Of a stretch of DNA of 56,999 bases, positions 10,324 to 31,939 are shown one piece after another; the first letter of the stretch is position 1, and every line of letters begins with the position of its first letter. The DNA comes from Bacillota bacterium (GTDB lineage Bacteria; Sysuimicrobiota; Sysuimicrobiia; Sysuimicrobiales; Segetimicrobiaceae): assembly GCA_021324975.1 (NCBI GenBank), contig JAJPIA010000122.1:1-56999 (forward strand), read 5' to 3'. The translations under genes and the position numbers were made by a program. Under the pieces are notes generated by a model. The model did no database searches. It was given only the letters and a program-made list of their open reading frames with translations, and was not told the origin of the DNA.

Positions 10324-10439
10324 GCCACCGTGTTCTACGCTCGCGGAGGGCCCTCCTGTTCCCGGCCGCGCCGGGACCCCGTACGGGCCGGTGCTCGTCG
10401 CGTCGGGGCCGTAGTGCCTCGTCCTACTGTGTGACGAGG

Positions 10440-10668
10440 GTAGAGGCGGCCGAGCGGACTTGGCCGGACGTCCTGGCTCACGCCGTAGGCGCGTACTGGT
10501 TCACGCCCGTGGGCCCAGGGCGTTCGACGCCCGCGATGCGCGCATGTGCGTGGCCTCACTCTACATGCGCTGCTGACGAACCGAACCGACGGATTTGTCA
10601 GGCGTCGTGCGTGGAGCGGAGGTCAGGTCCGCGCGGCTCCAACCCTTGGCGAAATACCACACGGTGCA
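10440..10668 (+). repeat. Copy A of an unidentified repeat, inverted relative to copy B
   Basis: This gene-free stretch between nfeD and the ligase gene matches 14245-14545 in opposite orientation in three blocks: 10448-10490 with 14537-14495 (40 of 43 bases identical), 10524-10573 with 14416-14367 (42 of 50), and 10611-10656 with 14305-14259. Sequence between the blocks differs in length and content. No transposase is encoded. It may be a miniature mobile element or a structured RNA. Nothing was seen in 10324-10439 apart from local GC-rich inverted repeats. Confidence 0.8.
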
Positions 10669-12318
10669 TTAGGGGGGCGGCCAGCCGTCCGCGGTCCCGG
10701 CCGCGCGGCGAACGAGCGCCGCGTGCAGCGCGCGGACGCGATCGAGCGTGTCGATCTCGTCCGCCGACTTGTCGTCGCGGATACGGACGATCCGCGGAAA
10801 CCTGAGCGCATACCCCGAATCATGGCGCTGGCTCTTGGTGATCGCGTCAAACGCGACCTCGAGCACCCGCACGGGCTCGACGAGCCGCAGCGGGCCGAGA
10901 TCGCGGCGCGTGTGCGCGTGGAACCAGGCGCTGAGCCCGGCGATCTCCTCGTCCGTCAGGCCCGAGTACGCCTTGCCGATCGTAGCGAGGCGCGCGCCGT
11001 CGCGCACCGCAAACGTGTAGTCGGACAAGATGCCCGCACGCTTGCCGTGCCCGTACTCGGCCGCCACGACGACCACGTCCAGGGTCCCGACGCCGGGCTT
11101 CCACTTCGTCCACAGCCGCCCGCGGCGCCCCGGCTGGTAAGGGGAGTCGGGGCGCTTCATCACGATCCCCTCGTGGCCCGCGTCGCGCGCCGCGTGAAAG
11201 CGCGCGTCGAGCTCCTCCGGCGTGCGTGCGAGGCTCCCGGTGCTGAGGCGCACCGGCCCCCGCGGCAGGAGCGCGTCGAGCACGGCGCGGCGCGCCGACA
11301 ACGGGGCGCCCAGGAGATCGCGGCCGTCGAGGTGCAGCACGTCGAAGCAGAGCAACACGACCGGGATCTCGTCCATGAGCCCGGCGGGATCGCGGCGCTG
11401 GAGCCGCTGCTGCAGGAGGAAAAACGGCAGCGGGCGCGTCCCCTTCCACGCGACGATCTCGCCGTCGAAGACGAAGGAGTGTCCGGCGGCCTCGAGCGGG
11501 GCCACGAGCTCGGGAAACACCGCCGTCACGTCGTCCAGTGTCCGCGAGAGAATTGCCACGCGCTGCGCGGTCCGGTGCACCTGCACGCGGACCCCGTCGT
11601 ACTTGTCCTCGACCCACAGCGCGGGCACGGAGTCCGCAAACGCGTCCCGCGGCGCGTCCACGGGGCTGGCCAACATGAAGCGAAACGGGCGGCCGGGCTC
11701 GATCGCGGTCTCGTGGAGCGCCCCGTGTCTGGCGCGAACGGCGATCTCGCCCGGATCCGCGATGAGCAGCGCGGCGTGGCGCACCTCCGCGGCGTCGCGC
11801 CCCGACGCCGACGCGATCGCCGGCAGCAGGAGCCCCTCGCGCAGGCCCACGCGCATGTCGGACGTAATGATCTTCACCAGGTAGGCGCCCTCGCGCGGCG
11901 TCGCGTCGTGAAACAGGCTCCTGAGCGCCGCGGCCTTGACGCGCCTCGACGCCGCGCCCTGGGCGCCGGCGATCGCCTCGAATCCCCGCGCGACCGTCTC
12001 GAGCGTGAGCGGCGCTTGAAAGAGCGCGGGCGCCGGAGGATACTGCGCGAGCAGCGCGGCCGCGGTGTCGCCGAGGTCGCCGTGCCGGCGGTAGGTCGCG
12101 TGGAACTCGTCGTCGGGCGCGCGCGTCAGCTCACGGAGAACCTCTCCGATCGCCACCCATCCCACACCGAGCCGCCGCGGATCACCCGGTGGGAACGGCG
12201 CGCCCCGAAGAAACGTGCAGGCGCGCCGCAGATCGTCGTCGGCCAGCGACGCGAGATACCGGCCGAGTGCCGAGATCTTCGTGAGCGTGCTCGAGGTGGC
12301 CCGCACCTCGTCCAACAC
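10669..12318 (-). CDS. ATP-dependent DNA ligase
   Basis: DNA ligase of the large archaeal/eukaryotic-like ATP-dependent family (LigB type), 549 aa. Order of domains: DNA-binding N-terminal domain (1-200), adenylation domain, OB fold. The nucleotidyl-acceptor lysine is K239 in EDKYDGVRVQVH (motif I). FDGEIVAW (III), EGIVMKR (IV) and WTKWK (V) are all present, so it should be active. It would act beside the NAD-dependent LigA, in repair or end joining; no Ku or LigD partner is nearby. The only in-frame start is the GTG at 12318. The codons just upstream (AAFAGLAAV) also look like family sequence but lack a start, so the true N-terminus is uncertain. It sits inside the repeat-bracketed block. 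Confidence 0.95.
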   Translation of the reverse strand: MLDEVRATSSTLTKISALGRYLASLADDDLRRACTFLRGAPFPPGDPRRLGVGWVAIGEVLRELTRAPDDEFHATYRRHGDLGDTAAALLAQYPPAPALFQAPLTLETVARGFEAIAGAQGAASRRVKAAALRSLFHDATPREGAYLVKIITSDMRVGLREGLLLPAIASASGRDAAEVRHAALLIADPGEIAVRARHGALHETAIEPGRPFRFMLASPVDAPRDAFADSVPALWVEDKYDGVRVQVHRTAQRVAILSRTLDDVTAVFPELVAPLEAAGHSFVFDGEIVAWKGTRPLPFFLLQQRLQRRDPAGLMDEIPVVLLCFDVLHLDGRDLLGAPLSARRAVLDALLPRGPVRLSTGSLARTPEELDARFHAARDAGHEGIVMKRPDSPYQPGRRGRLWTKWKPGVGTLDVVVVAAEYGHGKRAGILSDYTFAVRDGARLATIGKAYSGLTDEEIAGLSAWFHAHTRRDLGPLRLVEPVRVLEVAFDAITKSQRHDSGYALRFPRIVRIRDDKSADEIDTLDRVRALHAALVRRAAGTADGWPPP

Positions 12319-12424
12319 CGCGGCAAGCCCGGCAAACGCGGCCGCCGGACGATCCGGCGGGCCGGCGTCGCCCGGGCGGCGGGGATCGGCTGGATCACGC
12401 TCGAGACCGGCCGTGCAAACGCTC

Positions 12425-13246
12425 CTACAGGGTCGACCGCGCCATCACCAAGCACGCGACCGTGACGGTGTACGCCTGCTCGGCGTCCTTGGCCTTGAAG
12501 GCGACGGTACGAGGGTTCACGCGCGTCACGCCCGGGATCAGCATGCATCGATCCGCCATGCCCGTGTAGTGCCACTCGATCTCGAGCCCCACGGGCCGCG
12601 GGACGGTGAACGGCTTGAGGTCTTTCACGCGCTTGAGGGCCCGCTGCGCCCCGTCCTTGATGCGGCGGCGCGCCTCCACGGGCTGGTAGGACCGGGCCGC
12701 CACCCGGCCGATGGCTTCCTTGACGACGACGGGCTCGACCTGGGGGATGAGCTTCTTGACCTGCGCGGTCGCGGTTCCGTCGCCGGTCACGAGCGCCACG
12801 GGCACCTTGAAATGCCCGGCGAGCGCCGCGTTCAGCCCAACCTCGCCGACGATCAGGTTGCCGAGCTTGATCTGCCGGACGGATGCGCTGCTGAACGAGT
12901 GGTCGAGGATCGCGTTGGCCGTGCCCGCCGCGGCGTGGTAGCCGGTGAAAAACACGGCATCGAAGGACGCGTCGATGCCCTGCATCATGCTGTGCGGCTT
13001 CGGGCTGCCGCTGATGAGCTGCGCCTGCGGGTGCAGCTCCTCGATCAAGATGTTGCGCATGTCGGCGTGCGAGTCGTTGACGAGGATCTCCTTCGCGCCG
13101 CCTTCGAGCGCACCGAGGATCGCGGCGTTGACCTCCTCGGTCATCAGGCGGCGGAACCGCGTGTACTCGGGATGCCGCGACTGCACCTGTTCCCAATCCG
13201 TGACGCCGGCCGTGCCCTCCATATCCGCGGAGATGAAGACCTTCAT
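12425..13246 (-). CDS. M55-family D-aminopeptidase (DppA-like)
   Basis: Zinc peptidase of 273 aa related to Bacillus DppA, which removes N-terminal D-Ala from D-amino-acid peptides. Metal-binding signatures are present: ISADMEG at residues 5-11, VNDSHADM near 57-64 and FTGYHA near 100-105. The C-terminal part has the EWHYTGMAD motif region. The ATG at 13246 follows a run of Gs. It is about 100 bases upstream of the ligase and 223 bases downstream of the C26 hydrolase. Given nearby alanine racemase and gamma-glutamyl hydrolase, a role in scavenging peptidoglycan-derived peptides is plausible (inference). The 13247-13469 gap holds no gene that could be confirmed. Confidence 0.93.
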   Translation of the reverse strand: MKVFISADMEGTAGVTDWEQVQSRHPEYTRFRRLMTEEVNAAILGALEGGAKEILVNDSHADMRNILIEELHPQAQLISGSPKPHSMMQGIDASFDAVFFTGYHAAAGTANAILDHSFSSASVRQIKLGNLIVGEVGLNAALAGHFKVPVALVTGDGTATAQVKKLIPQVEPVVVKEAIGRVAARSYQPVEARRRIKDGAQRALKRVKDLKPFTVPRPVGLEIEWHYTGMADRCMLIPGVTRVNPRTVAFKAKDAEQAYTVTVACLVMARSTL

Positions 13247-13469
13247 CGATCCCCCCCGGAACTCGTCTCGATCAAACGCCCGCTACCGCGTATCCACATC
13301 GGGTCCGACGGGGCACACATATTCCGTCGCGGGCGCCAAACGCCCGCCTCCGATCAGCCCCGTCCGGCACGTGCGGCGCGCCACGCACTTCGACGGTAAG
13401 ACGCCAGGATACCTCCTCCGGGCCGTCTCCGGATGCGCCGTGCGGCCCGCCGAACGTTCAGCAGCCGCG

Positions 13470-14228
13470 TCACCGCGCGGCGATACGGACCCGCTCCCGC
13501 GCGGCGCGGACCAGGGCTTGGAACAGGCGCGCGTGAGCGGCGTCGTGCCTCCACATGCGCTCGGGATGCCACTGCACGCCCAGCACGAATCGCTTTGCCG
13601 GCGCCTCGATCGCTTCGATCAGCGCCGGAGCCTGGGGCTCCACGGCCCGCGCCGTCACGACCAGCCCCGGAGCGGGATCGCGGACCGCCTGGTGGTGGAA
13701 CGTGTTCACGCCGAGCGTGGCCGCGCCGACGATGTCGCGCAGGCGCGTGCCCGCCTCGACCGTCACGGCGTGGACCGCGGCGTGGGTCGGGAGCTCCGGA
13801 TGCGACTTGCGCTGCTGGTGAGTCCACGCCTGGCGCCCTGAGCGCTCGACATCCACATCCTGGATCAGCGTGCCGCCGAGCGCCACGTTGAGCGTCTGGA
13901 TGCCGCGGCAGATGGCGAACACCGGCAGATCCCGCCGGACCGCCTCGCGCGCCAGGGGCAGCTCGAGCGCGTCGCGCTCGGGATCGGGCTCGACCGCCAT
14001 CTCCGGCCGCGCCCGCTCGCCGTACTCCTCCGGGGCAACGTCGAGGCCGCCCGTAAGCACGAGCCCGTCGAGATCGTCGAGCGCGCGCGCCGGGACGGCA
14101 CCCGGCAGCACGGGGACCGGCTCGCCGCCCGCGGCCTCCACCGCTTCGGCGTACGCGTCAAACGAGATGCGCTCGCGCTCGGTGCGCCGCGCGCCGGCGA
14201 TGCCGATGCGTGGACGGTGGTCGGTCAC
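13470..14228 (-). CDS. Class I glutamine amidotransferase-like gamma-glutamyl hydrolase (peptidase C26)
   Basis: 252-aa protein of the gamma-Glu-GABA hydrolase (PuuD-like) family. The nucleophile elbow is AICRGIQTLNVALGG, and the catalytic His-Glu pair lies in GVQWHPE near the C-terminus. The N-terminal RPRIGIAG strand and TGGLDVAPEEYGE loop match the family. The start is a GTG at 14228 behind GGAGG eight bases upstream; the open frame extends further only through repeat copy B. Substrate could be a gamma-glutamyl amide or peptide. It is the outermost gene of the repeat-bracketed block. Confidence 0.92.
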   Translation of the reverse strand: MTDHRPRIGIAGARRTERERISFDAYAEAVEAAGGEPVPVLPGAVPARALDDLDGLVLTGGLDVAPEEYGERARPEMAVEPDPERDALELPLAREAVRRDLPVFAICRGIQTLNVALGGTLIQDVDVERSGRQAWTHQQRKSHPELPTHAAVHAVTVEAGTRLRDIVGAATLGVNTFHHQAVRDPAPGLVVTARAVEPQAPALIEAIEAPAKRFVLGVQWHPERMWRHDAAHARLFQALVRAARERVRIAAR

Positions 14229-14244
14229 GGTGGCGTCCTCCACA

Positions 14245-14545
14245 AGTGCGTCATCGCTTACTTCAGCAAGGGCTGGTGCCGGGCGGGCCTGCCCCTCCGC
14301 TCCACTATGCCTGCGGCGCGAGCCAAAGCGCCCGACGCCGGACCCATGCCGTGCCTTCGCTTGGTCCGCAGCGCAAGTAAGGTGATGCCACGCAACTGTG
14401 AGCATCGCGGGCGTCGACCGGAGGCGGCCCAAGCCGCCGGAGGGGTCGAGGCCCTCGTTGGATTGGATTCATGAGGGCCGAGACCAACCCCGCTGCCTAC
14501 GGCGTGGGCCAGGACGTCCGGCCAGGCCCGCTCGGCCCGTCTACC
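14245..14545 (-). repeat. Copy B of the unidentified repeat
   Basis: Partner of copy A, in opposite orientation, between the pxpBC fusion and the C26 hydrolase gene. It carries several strong internal hairpins, for example the arms GGCCCTC / GAGGGCC (14450-14479) and GGCGGC / GCCGCC (around 14423-14438), and CATCGCTTACTT near 14252 can pair with AAGTAAGGTGATG near 14375-14387. Arms of this kind suggest a folded RNA or a palindromic mobile element. Compared with copy A it contains extra sequence between the first two shared blocks. 14546-14682 shows nothing recognisable. Confidence 0.8.
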
Positions 14546-14682
14546 CTGGTCGCGCATACGAGATGCGGCACCCGAACGTCACGCTCCCACAACTCTACAC
14601 CGTGGTGCCCGCCGGCGTCAAAGGAACTGCGTGGCGACAGGCATCACCGCCTCGACGACATGGAGCCGACCATCCCGCCGGG

Positions 14683-22582: not shown

Positions 22583-22840
22583 TGAGGCAGCCTCCATCGC
22601 GCGCTGCGGCTCGTCCGGCGTAACGGTCCGGGGCCGCGGCGCGAAGATGTGCCCGACGAATACCCGCGCCGCCCCAACGGATCGTCGGAGGCGCACCGGC
22701 ACACGGCCGCTGCCGCCATTGGGCAACGGACCACGCGAGCCGCGGTGGAAAATGCGGGCAGGCACGGCGGGATGACTCCGCGGATGGCGGCCGCGGGGCG
22801 GGAATCCGCCGCGACCGCCCACTGCCTGTCGGGGTGTGTG

Positions 22841-23001
22841 TCCCGGACGCCTTTTGTGCCCGGGGTCACCCCCGGGTTTTGTCGGCGTCCTTCGAGGCTT
22901 GGACCGAGCCTAGGGTCACCCGCCGAATAGGAGCGTCACCGCTCCACTCGAGATCCCCTACCTCGTCAACTCGCCGCACGAGCGCGGCGAGTTCCGGCGC
23001 T
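22841..23001 (-). ncRNA. glmS ribozyme
   Basis: Self-cleaving RNA in the glmS leader, activated by glucosamine-6-phosphate to switch off glmS. Read on the minus strand it starts with A-GCGCC; cleavage is expected between 23001 and 23000. A perfect 9-bp stem (22992-22984 with 22977-22969) follows. The invariant GTTGACGAGG is at 22970-22961 and TCGGCGGGTG at about 22926-22917. Then come a GGACGCC / GGCGTCC stem (22890-22884 with 22851-22845) enclosing an AAAACCCGGGG / CCCCGGG hairpin, and the closing CCGGG. Order and spacing match Thermoanaerobacter-type ribozymes. An added hairpin occupies 22930-22945. The 22583-22840 stretch to the start codon shows no further feature. Confidence 0.94.
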
Positions 23002-23228
23002 TGTGTCGCGACGCGTCCCCTCTCACCCCCTCTGGCTCATGCTGCCGTCGGCGCTGCGGCCGCCTGTCGGCCGGCGCCTGTCTTACACTGCCGCCCCCGA
23101 CGCCGCGATCTGCGGGTGCCGTCTGCCCCTCCCGGAATCGCGATGGAATCATACCCTATTCGGGCGGCGCGCGCCAGACACGCCGGGGCGCTGTCACGTT
23201 TATACCCCGGATTGGAGTCCGGCCGGCG
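23002..23228 (-). other. Gene-free stretch between glmM and the glmS ribozyme
   Basis: About 230 bases holding presumably the glmS promoter. A TATGAT-like box on the minus strand is visible near 23148-23153, but no convincing -35 partner was found. No ORF looks coding. Confidence 0.4.
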
Positions 23229-27718: not shown

Positions 27719-27933
27719 ACGACCGCCAGGTCGTTCGCCGGCTGCTCGACCTGAGCGAAAACCCTCGCCCCCACGACAGCGAGCAACTCCACGGTTATCG
27801 CGATCCGGAGGTCACGGGCCGCAAAGGCTCCCGGTTGGATCAGGGAGAGTATCGGCTGCTCTACACGATTGACGATAACACACGTCGCGTGATCATCTTC
27901 CGAGTCGGACACCGCAAGGACATCTACAGGTAA
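27697..27933 (+). CDS. RelE/ParE-family toxin-like protein, short N-terminus, no antitoxin
   Basis: 78 aa read from a GTG. The C-terminal two thirds fit RelE: LLDLSENPRPHDSEQLHG, then GEYRLLYTIDDNTRRVIIFRVGHRKDIYR, the closing strands with the basic catalytic region. About 15-20 N-terminal residues of the fold (first strand and part of the first helix) are missing, and the frame is closed upstream by TAA at 27688. It is one of very few plus-strand genes. No antitoxin gene is next to it. It may be a truncated relic, or be translated from a leaderless transcript because TATAAT lies six bases before the GTG. Confidence 0.72.
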   Translation: MEHHNNANDRQVVRRLLDLSENPRPHDSEQLHGYRDPEVTGRKGSRLDQGEYRLLYTIDDNTRRVIIFRVGHRKDIYR

Positions 27934-31546: not shown

Positions 31547-31939
31547 CGTCCAACGCCGGGATCAACGCACTCGGTACGCGCCCACTCTCGGCCTAGGATT
31601 TGGATCCTTGCACTCCCCGTGACACACCGGCAGGCTCCCTCATAGCCCGCCTTGAACCCTTCCGCGTGCACGGATTCGCCCACGTTGCTGCGCCGGCGCT
31701 CCGGCTCGCGGCTAAAGTGTACGGCAAGGTGCTGGCCGCCGGCTGGATCGTGGAGCCACGGCGGCCGATGGATCTACCTGGCCGGCCTCATGGGCTTCGC
31801 CTTCGGGCTGGTCCTGCTCGCCGTCCTGCGTACACCGGACCCACCCCTCTAATTTTCACACCAAACTCGCATCAGCTTCGGCCGCCTCGGGTGAATCCGC
31901 TTCGAAGGACTTGATACTCCCGAACTCGCGGGGAAAGCG
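31547..31939. other. Intergenic stretch between divergent genes
   Basis: 393 bases between the haem/propeller gene (minus) and the PAP2 gene (plus). A plus-strand frame at 31652-31852 (66 codons, TTG start) ends in one plausible membrane segment (WIYLAGLMGFAFGLVLLAVL) followed by RTPDPPL, but the first half has shadow-like composition. It may be a relic or a small membrane protein. No promoter was convincing. Confidence 0.3.

Follow-up and report, generated by a model that had tools for sequence, protein, structure and literature searches.

The closest described counterparts of the repeat family reported here are the modular BOX and the IS630-linked RUP elements of pneumococcus, together with ERIC for orientation-dependent effects on transcripts. 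ERIC and Correia (NEMIS) elements insert at TA, and we know of no swappable 23-bp unit in them. They are intergenic fold-backs whose transcription in one particular orientation can alter mRNA stability (work cited in PMC3049150). BOX elements, found in Streptococcus pneumoniae and S. suis, are intergenic and tightly folded, carry terminal inverted repeats and range from 67 to 637 bp, with boxB being absent, single or multiple (PMC3049150); their mobilisation by an IS in trans has been proposed (PMC3049150). RUP of S. pneumoniae is a MITE with terminal inverted repeats and target duplication, attributed to an IS630-type transposase in trans; it is simple, AT-rich and 107 bp long, and it matches the ends of the resident IS630-Spn1 (PMC3049150). 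BOX, RUP and SPRITE repeats have also been inserted into one another (PMC3049150).

How repeats of 20-30 bp can seemingly be mobile with neither ends nor a transposase has long been a puzzle, and the known cases come mainly from cyanobacteria. One cyanobacterial small dispersed repeat, SDR5, was reportedly described by Elhai et al. 2008. Precise insertion of SDR5 into HIP1 is on record (cited in PMC4390886), and small dispersed repeats have been characterised as ~20 bp long, tandem and possibly mobile (PMC2884548).

Here, we analysed a window of 56,999 nucleotides (the whole stretch of DNA under study) from a 4.43-Mb draft genome (G000), in which two oppositely oriented repeats flank three genes. 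We consider it highly probable that these repeats are copies of a modular MITE with IS630/Tc1-mariner-type insertion and with nested, swapped modules. The kind is known, namely a BOX-, RUP- or ERIC-like MITE together with SDR5-like very small repeats, and the nested content is unusual. Like BOX, the element is short, non-coding, modular and folded and has inverted ends, but it differs in sequence, phylum and base composition; its likeness to ERIC and Correia elements, as an intergenic fold-back inserted at TA, is one of features.

Two repeats and the genes between them

The two repeat stretches align locally with a score of 679, whereas 198 pairs drawn at random from the window score 319 on average and 458 at most; this bears out an earlier note that had described ordered conserved blocks on opposite strands. 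The locations given there were right but the extents were not, the full elements being slightly longer. The first copy, read from TA to TA, occupies 10412-10671 on the plus strand, between an NfeD-like gene and the ligase stop codon, and runs against the direction of the neighbouring genes; the second occupies 14244-14573 on the minus strand, between the PxpBC and C26 genes and sense to both, with its end just upstream of the C26 ribosome-binding region and its terminal TAs decayed. What had been called variable sequence between the blocks is indeed variable, mostly through the presence or absence of discrete inserted modules. In copy 1, socket 1 holds a 23-bp T unit (10468-10490, plus strand), followed in tandem, on a by-eye reading, by a diverged second T-like unit, GCGTACTGGTTCACGCCCGTGGGC (10491-10514, plus strand), and socket 2 keeps the conserved hairpin GGGCGTTCGACGCCC (10518-10532, plus strand) without a ~70-bp module. 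In copy 2, socket 1 is again filled by a 23-bp T unit (14495-14517), socket 2, which is the loop of the central hairpin, by the ~70-bp double-hairpin module M2 (14418-14487) and socket 3 by the T-like unit GCGCTTTGGCTCGCGCCGCAGGCA (14308-14331), all on the minus strand. The element was correctly described as lacking a transposase and as containing internal hairpins; one core copy (L014) folds end to end with z = -3.9.

Both window repeats are members of one dispersed family. DNA searches with either copy returned tens of matches in G000, which merged into about 40 elements, and an end-to-end catalogue comprises 51 full copies, of which 38 are in G000 and 13 in the draft genome of a congener, G002 (assembly JAJPJL01, Centralia_MAG_47, labelled Bacillota). 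When the 86 bp at the right end were made into a sequence model, it gave 51 matches in G000 and 36 in G002, confirming the many genome-wide copies that the earlier note had named as a sign of mobility; in the 41 further genomes searched from the phylum, probably Sysuimicrobiota, among them one of a third species of the genus, it gave 0 matches, in a search run with stricter filters that very weak relatives could escape.

The enclosed genes encode an ATP-dependent DNA ligase (10669-12318; PF01068/PF04675/PF04679), an M55 D-aminopeptidase (12425-13246; PF04951) and a C26 peptidase or glutamine amidotransferase-like protein (13470-14225; PF07722), all on the minus strand, and their Pfam domains agree with the identities first proposed. 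It had been suggested that the element might have moved these genes as a cassette, accessory ligases often being laterally acquired. That the ligase, M55 and C26 genes arrived together with both copies is now refuted: the copies do flank the block in opposite orientation, as such a pair would, but G001, G002 and G008 all have the order NfeD-ligase-M55-C26-PxpBC, as do G003 and G005 in the parts available, so that synteny of the block extends across the family in genomes lacking the element pair. G002, the closest relative, lacks both window copies and instead has copies of its own within the block, in the ligase-M55 and M55-C26 spacers. The ligase is present in 13 of the 15 genomes searched and is thus not an accessory acquisition, and the block, whose absence from sister genomes the note would have taken as support for mobility, is present in relatives in the same order. 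All three genes are conserved in place, the ligase not being cargo, and the two copies bracket the block by the coincidence of separate insertions.

Ends, target site and transposase

Full copies have the ends TA-GTGCnnCrTC ... GATGAnGCAC-TA, and in the copy catalogue the flanks mostly read C/TA...TA/G, which makes CTAG the usual target. The terminal inverted repeats form helix 1 of the alignment (columns 5-14/340-349), with 95.6% of cells paired. The core class is 213-219 bp long, and derivatives of 53-135 bp keep both ends; because the interior of one orthologous insertion, behind the same TAG in G000 and G002, is gone in G002, some of the short forms are internal deletions.

The insertion event can be read in the ligase-M55 spacer. 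Here, at an empty TA target (12426-12427, unstranded), the window has CCTG-TA-GGAG, whereas G002, which carries a 219-bp copy with TA on both sides, has CCTG-TA-GTGCTGCGCC...CGACGCAG-TA-GGAG. The comparison of empty and filled spacer shows insertion with TA duplication, read at this one clean empty site, the empty versions of the window copies being too diverged for reading. No second empty site was found elsewhere in the alignment of the window with G002, where the differences consist of other sequence; two window stretches, 27722-27930 (~210 bp) and 31594-31918 (~325 bp), have no counterpart at the syntenic place in G002 and are not the MITE. The target-site duplication that the earlier note had looked to as a sign of mobility is therefore present, and its reading of a non-autonomous mobile element is upheld by dozens of copies, inverted ends, the TA duplication, deletion derivatives and absence from most relatives.

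These ends also bear on whether the repeats might be REP/RAYT-type or IS200/IS605-derived elements and not a MITE with terminal inverted repeats, which we regard as very unlikely. Both the T unit and the region near the left end contain GTAG, and M2 consists of two adjacent hairpins, as might be expected of such elements. IS200/IS605-type insertion, however, yields neither terminal inverted repeats nor TA duplication, both of which the element has, and the T unit is not a GTAG-tagged palindrome, being non-palindromic with a fold z of -0.3.

The TA duplication and the outer bases point to a transposase of the IS630/Tc1-mariner family, which would be supplied in trans. For ISY100, of the IS630 family, TA is almost the sole target and is duplicated on insertion (PMC2170065); the MITE has the same target and duplication, but it has no transposase gene of its own and a different inner end sequence. 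In G000, there is an IS630-type transposase gene (PF13358) whose element likewise starts with CTAGTG. This element (L108, contig C19, 935-2055, with the ends CTAGTGCACCGAGTC and GACTCAGGACACTAG) is apparently intact and lies near a contig end. As the direct parent of the MITE it was rejected, the two having only the outer CTAGTG in common and different inner ends. Unlike RUP, the MITE thus matches no resident IS beyond CTAGTG, and because the end match failed, we class it as IS630-like by its insertion without deriving it from any named IS630. No transposase gene was found between matching ends in the drafts of G000 and G002, in which a partner could hide at contig ends, and an autonomous copy, sought as ends 0.6-2.5 kb apart, was absent from the exact matches in G000 and from those listed for G001 and G002. 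We propose that a trans-supplied IS630/Tc1-mariner-type transposase would recognise the two ends of the element and insert it at TA, mostly in CTAG.

Orientation behind genes and RNA structure

With genes called by a home-made GC3-based method and not taken from annotation, 44 of the 48 copies follow a gene pointing the same way as the element (two-sided p = 1.5e-9); among co-directional contexts, 32 are sense ('++') and 3 antisense ('--'), window copy 1 being counted. This strong sense bias can be set against the situation in pneumococcus, where the leading strand carries 61-63% of repeats, in keeping with the coding bias (PMC3049150). In 26 of 49 copies the upstream frame ends at the left-edge TAG, which serves as its stop codon, and in 11 copies a gene on the opposite strand ends in this way at the right edge. 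The keeping of stop codons does not explain the bias, since both ends begin with TA-GTGC and either orientation rebuilds TAG. In our proposal, the CTAG target in a GC-rich genome would often be the TAG stop codon of a gene, insertion would be harmless because both element ends rebuild TAG, and the inserted element would probably be co-transcribed with the preceding gene and form one long fold-back. The bias itself is observed. Its cause may be selection against antisense copies or a directional insertion process, two possibilities between which the data do not discriminate; in our proposal, antisense copies would be purged or avoided.

The covariation analysis covered 30 aligned copies, with 95.2% of pairs in the predicted helices being standard and with more covariation than in any of the 500 shuffles or any slid version. 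The strongest is the subterminal helix (columns 49-57/295-303), in which 98.7% of cells are paired and 5 of 8 pairs have changed on both sides, in particular by a G-C to C-G exchange between subfamilies. In the core of this helix, G-U cells outnumber A-C cells 30 to 1, an excess that is expected if the sense RNA pairs, although few independent columns contribute to it. The covarying stems that the earlier note had named as the mark of an RNA were thus found, with 0 of 500 shuffles reaching the observed score.

Such observations could mean that the repeat is a functional structured RNA, for example a site behind stop codons at which mRNA is processed, stabilised or attenuated; on this reading, function accounts for its amplification and retention, mobility being only its route of spread. 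We judge this rather unlikely. It would account for compensatory changes far above the shuffled and slid controls, for the sense orientation, for the G-U excess and for the position of copies at the 3' ends of genes within operon-like runs; covariation and orientation bias together exceed what a purely parasitic MITE would need, and this counts against an entirely parasitic element. However, copies decay to 53-bp remnants, their positions differ between the two congeners, neither the genus's third species nor any other genome searched in the phylum yielded a copy, and an Rfam scan of the window at the gathering score gave no match except glmS elsewhere in the window. Covariation between the arms could also stem from DNA palindrome correction or subfamily turnover and is, for a palindromic element, not specific to RNA. 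The suggestion of a repeated structured RNA has therefore gained covarying stems and a sense orientation bias, both of which fit a MITE within transcripts equally well. We retain the modular MITE as our preferred reading, and judged from its sequence, a role at the mRNA level is plausible. The glmS ribozyme/riboswitch itself, at 22835-23012 on the minus strand, scores 86 bits, well over the gathering score, in this GC-rich genome.

T and M2 modules in their sockets

Optional pieces occupy fixed sockets of the element in combinations that differ among copies, filled and empty versions occurring in one genome. The 23-bp T unit, ACGTCYTGGCTCACGCCGTAGGC, fills socket 1, in some copies with a second, diverged unit after it; the loop formed by the hairpin GCGGGCGTTCGACGCCCGC is socket 2 and holds M2, ~70 bp in length with two hairpins; and socket 3 holds a T-like unit. 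Across 11 M2-bearing copies, the mean identity is 0.945 for M2 and 0.762 for the host, with a correlation of -0.16. M2 is 94-100% identical between hosts of 57-65% identity, and between window copy 2 and the C70 copy it is 100% identical with hosts at 64%. These identities show that M2 travels apart from its host, presumably by insertion or within very short conversion tracts.

Unlike the internal module of BOX, T also lives outside the element across the bacterial family: it was found in 6 of 12 family genomes and in 0 of 31 genomes of other families, with 0 control hits. In G004, G007, G008 and G010, which are without the MITE, T is single or in tandem, up to 5 copies, and has exact edges at about 49 distinct unrelated contexts; the bases before it are GG, with G at -2 in 44 of 49 contexts. 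The orientation of T relative to genes shows no significant bias (12 vs 20), and no T unit was found in viral contigs. A preference for hairpin loops, suggested by eye in G007, was rejected, with junction-spanning pairs at 10.7 compared with 10.7 for re-paired flanks.

Several individual T sites deserve description. Arrays of 4-5 tandem copies are present at three loci of G008 (L240, L239 and L207, on contigs C186, C18 and C111, respectively), and at what appears to be the site orthologous to the C111 array, G010 has a single copy. On contig C59 of G008 (L213), T lies, by eye, within the N-terminal coding region of a PxpB-like gene, in frame as DVLAHAVG, and may have added residues to this protein. 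On contig C57 of G007 (L142, ~1500), a direct repeat, GGGACTAGCCGTCGGG...GCGACGGCGTCGCC, carries T in only one of its two adjacent copies; this neighbouring pair of empty and filled sites is suggestive only.

The sockets are filled by T (23 bp) and M2 (~70 bp), which, as the contrast in identity shows, have spread among copies independently of the host. We tentatively propose that both may themselves be very small mobile elements that enter the sockets of the MITE and, in the case of T, many other sites too. It is about equally likely that neither module is mobile: homologous recombination or gene conversion among MITE copies may have distributed them, and T elsewhere may represent old minisatellites. 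The 10-20 bp of shared host sequence that flank the module edges are consistent with such exchange, as are the tandem arrays of 1-5 T copies, including one site where G008 has five and G010 a single copy; the near-identity of M2 between divergent hosts would, however, need a very short conversion tract, and the precise edges of T in its many unrelated contexts, in four genomes without the MITE, argue against it.

For T, the nearest likeness is to SDR5. SDR5 and T are both ~23-24 bp long, have exact edges, lie in unrelated contexts, occur singly or in tandem and within other elements, and have no known transposase. T differs in sequence and lineage, its hairpin-loop preference is unsupported, and it is preceded by GG and not by HIP1. 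If mobile, both modules would lie far below the usual size of transposable elements, and an equivalent of cyanobacterial SDR5 would exist in a bacterial lineage unrelated to it. The MITE is a test case for why insertions that are possible either way persist almost only in the sense direction behind genes, and the occurrence of T in exact MITE sockets, together with its family-wide spread, provides a clean comparative system for how such units move.
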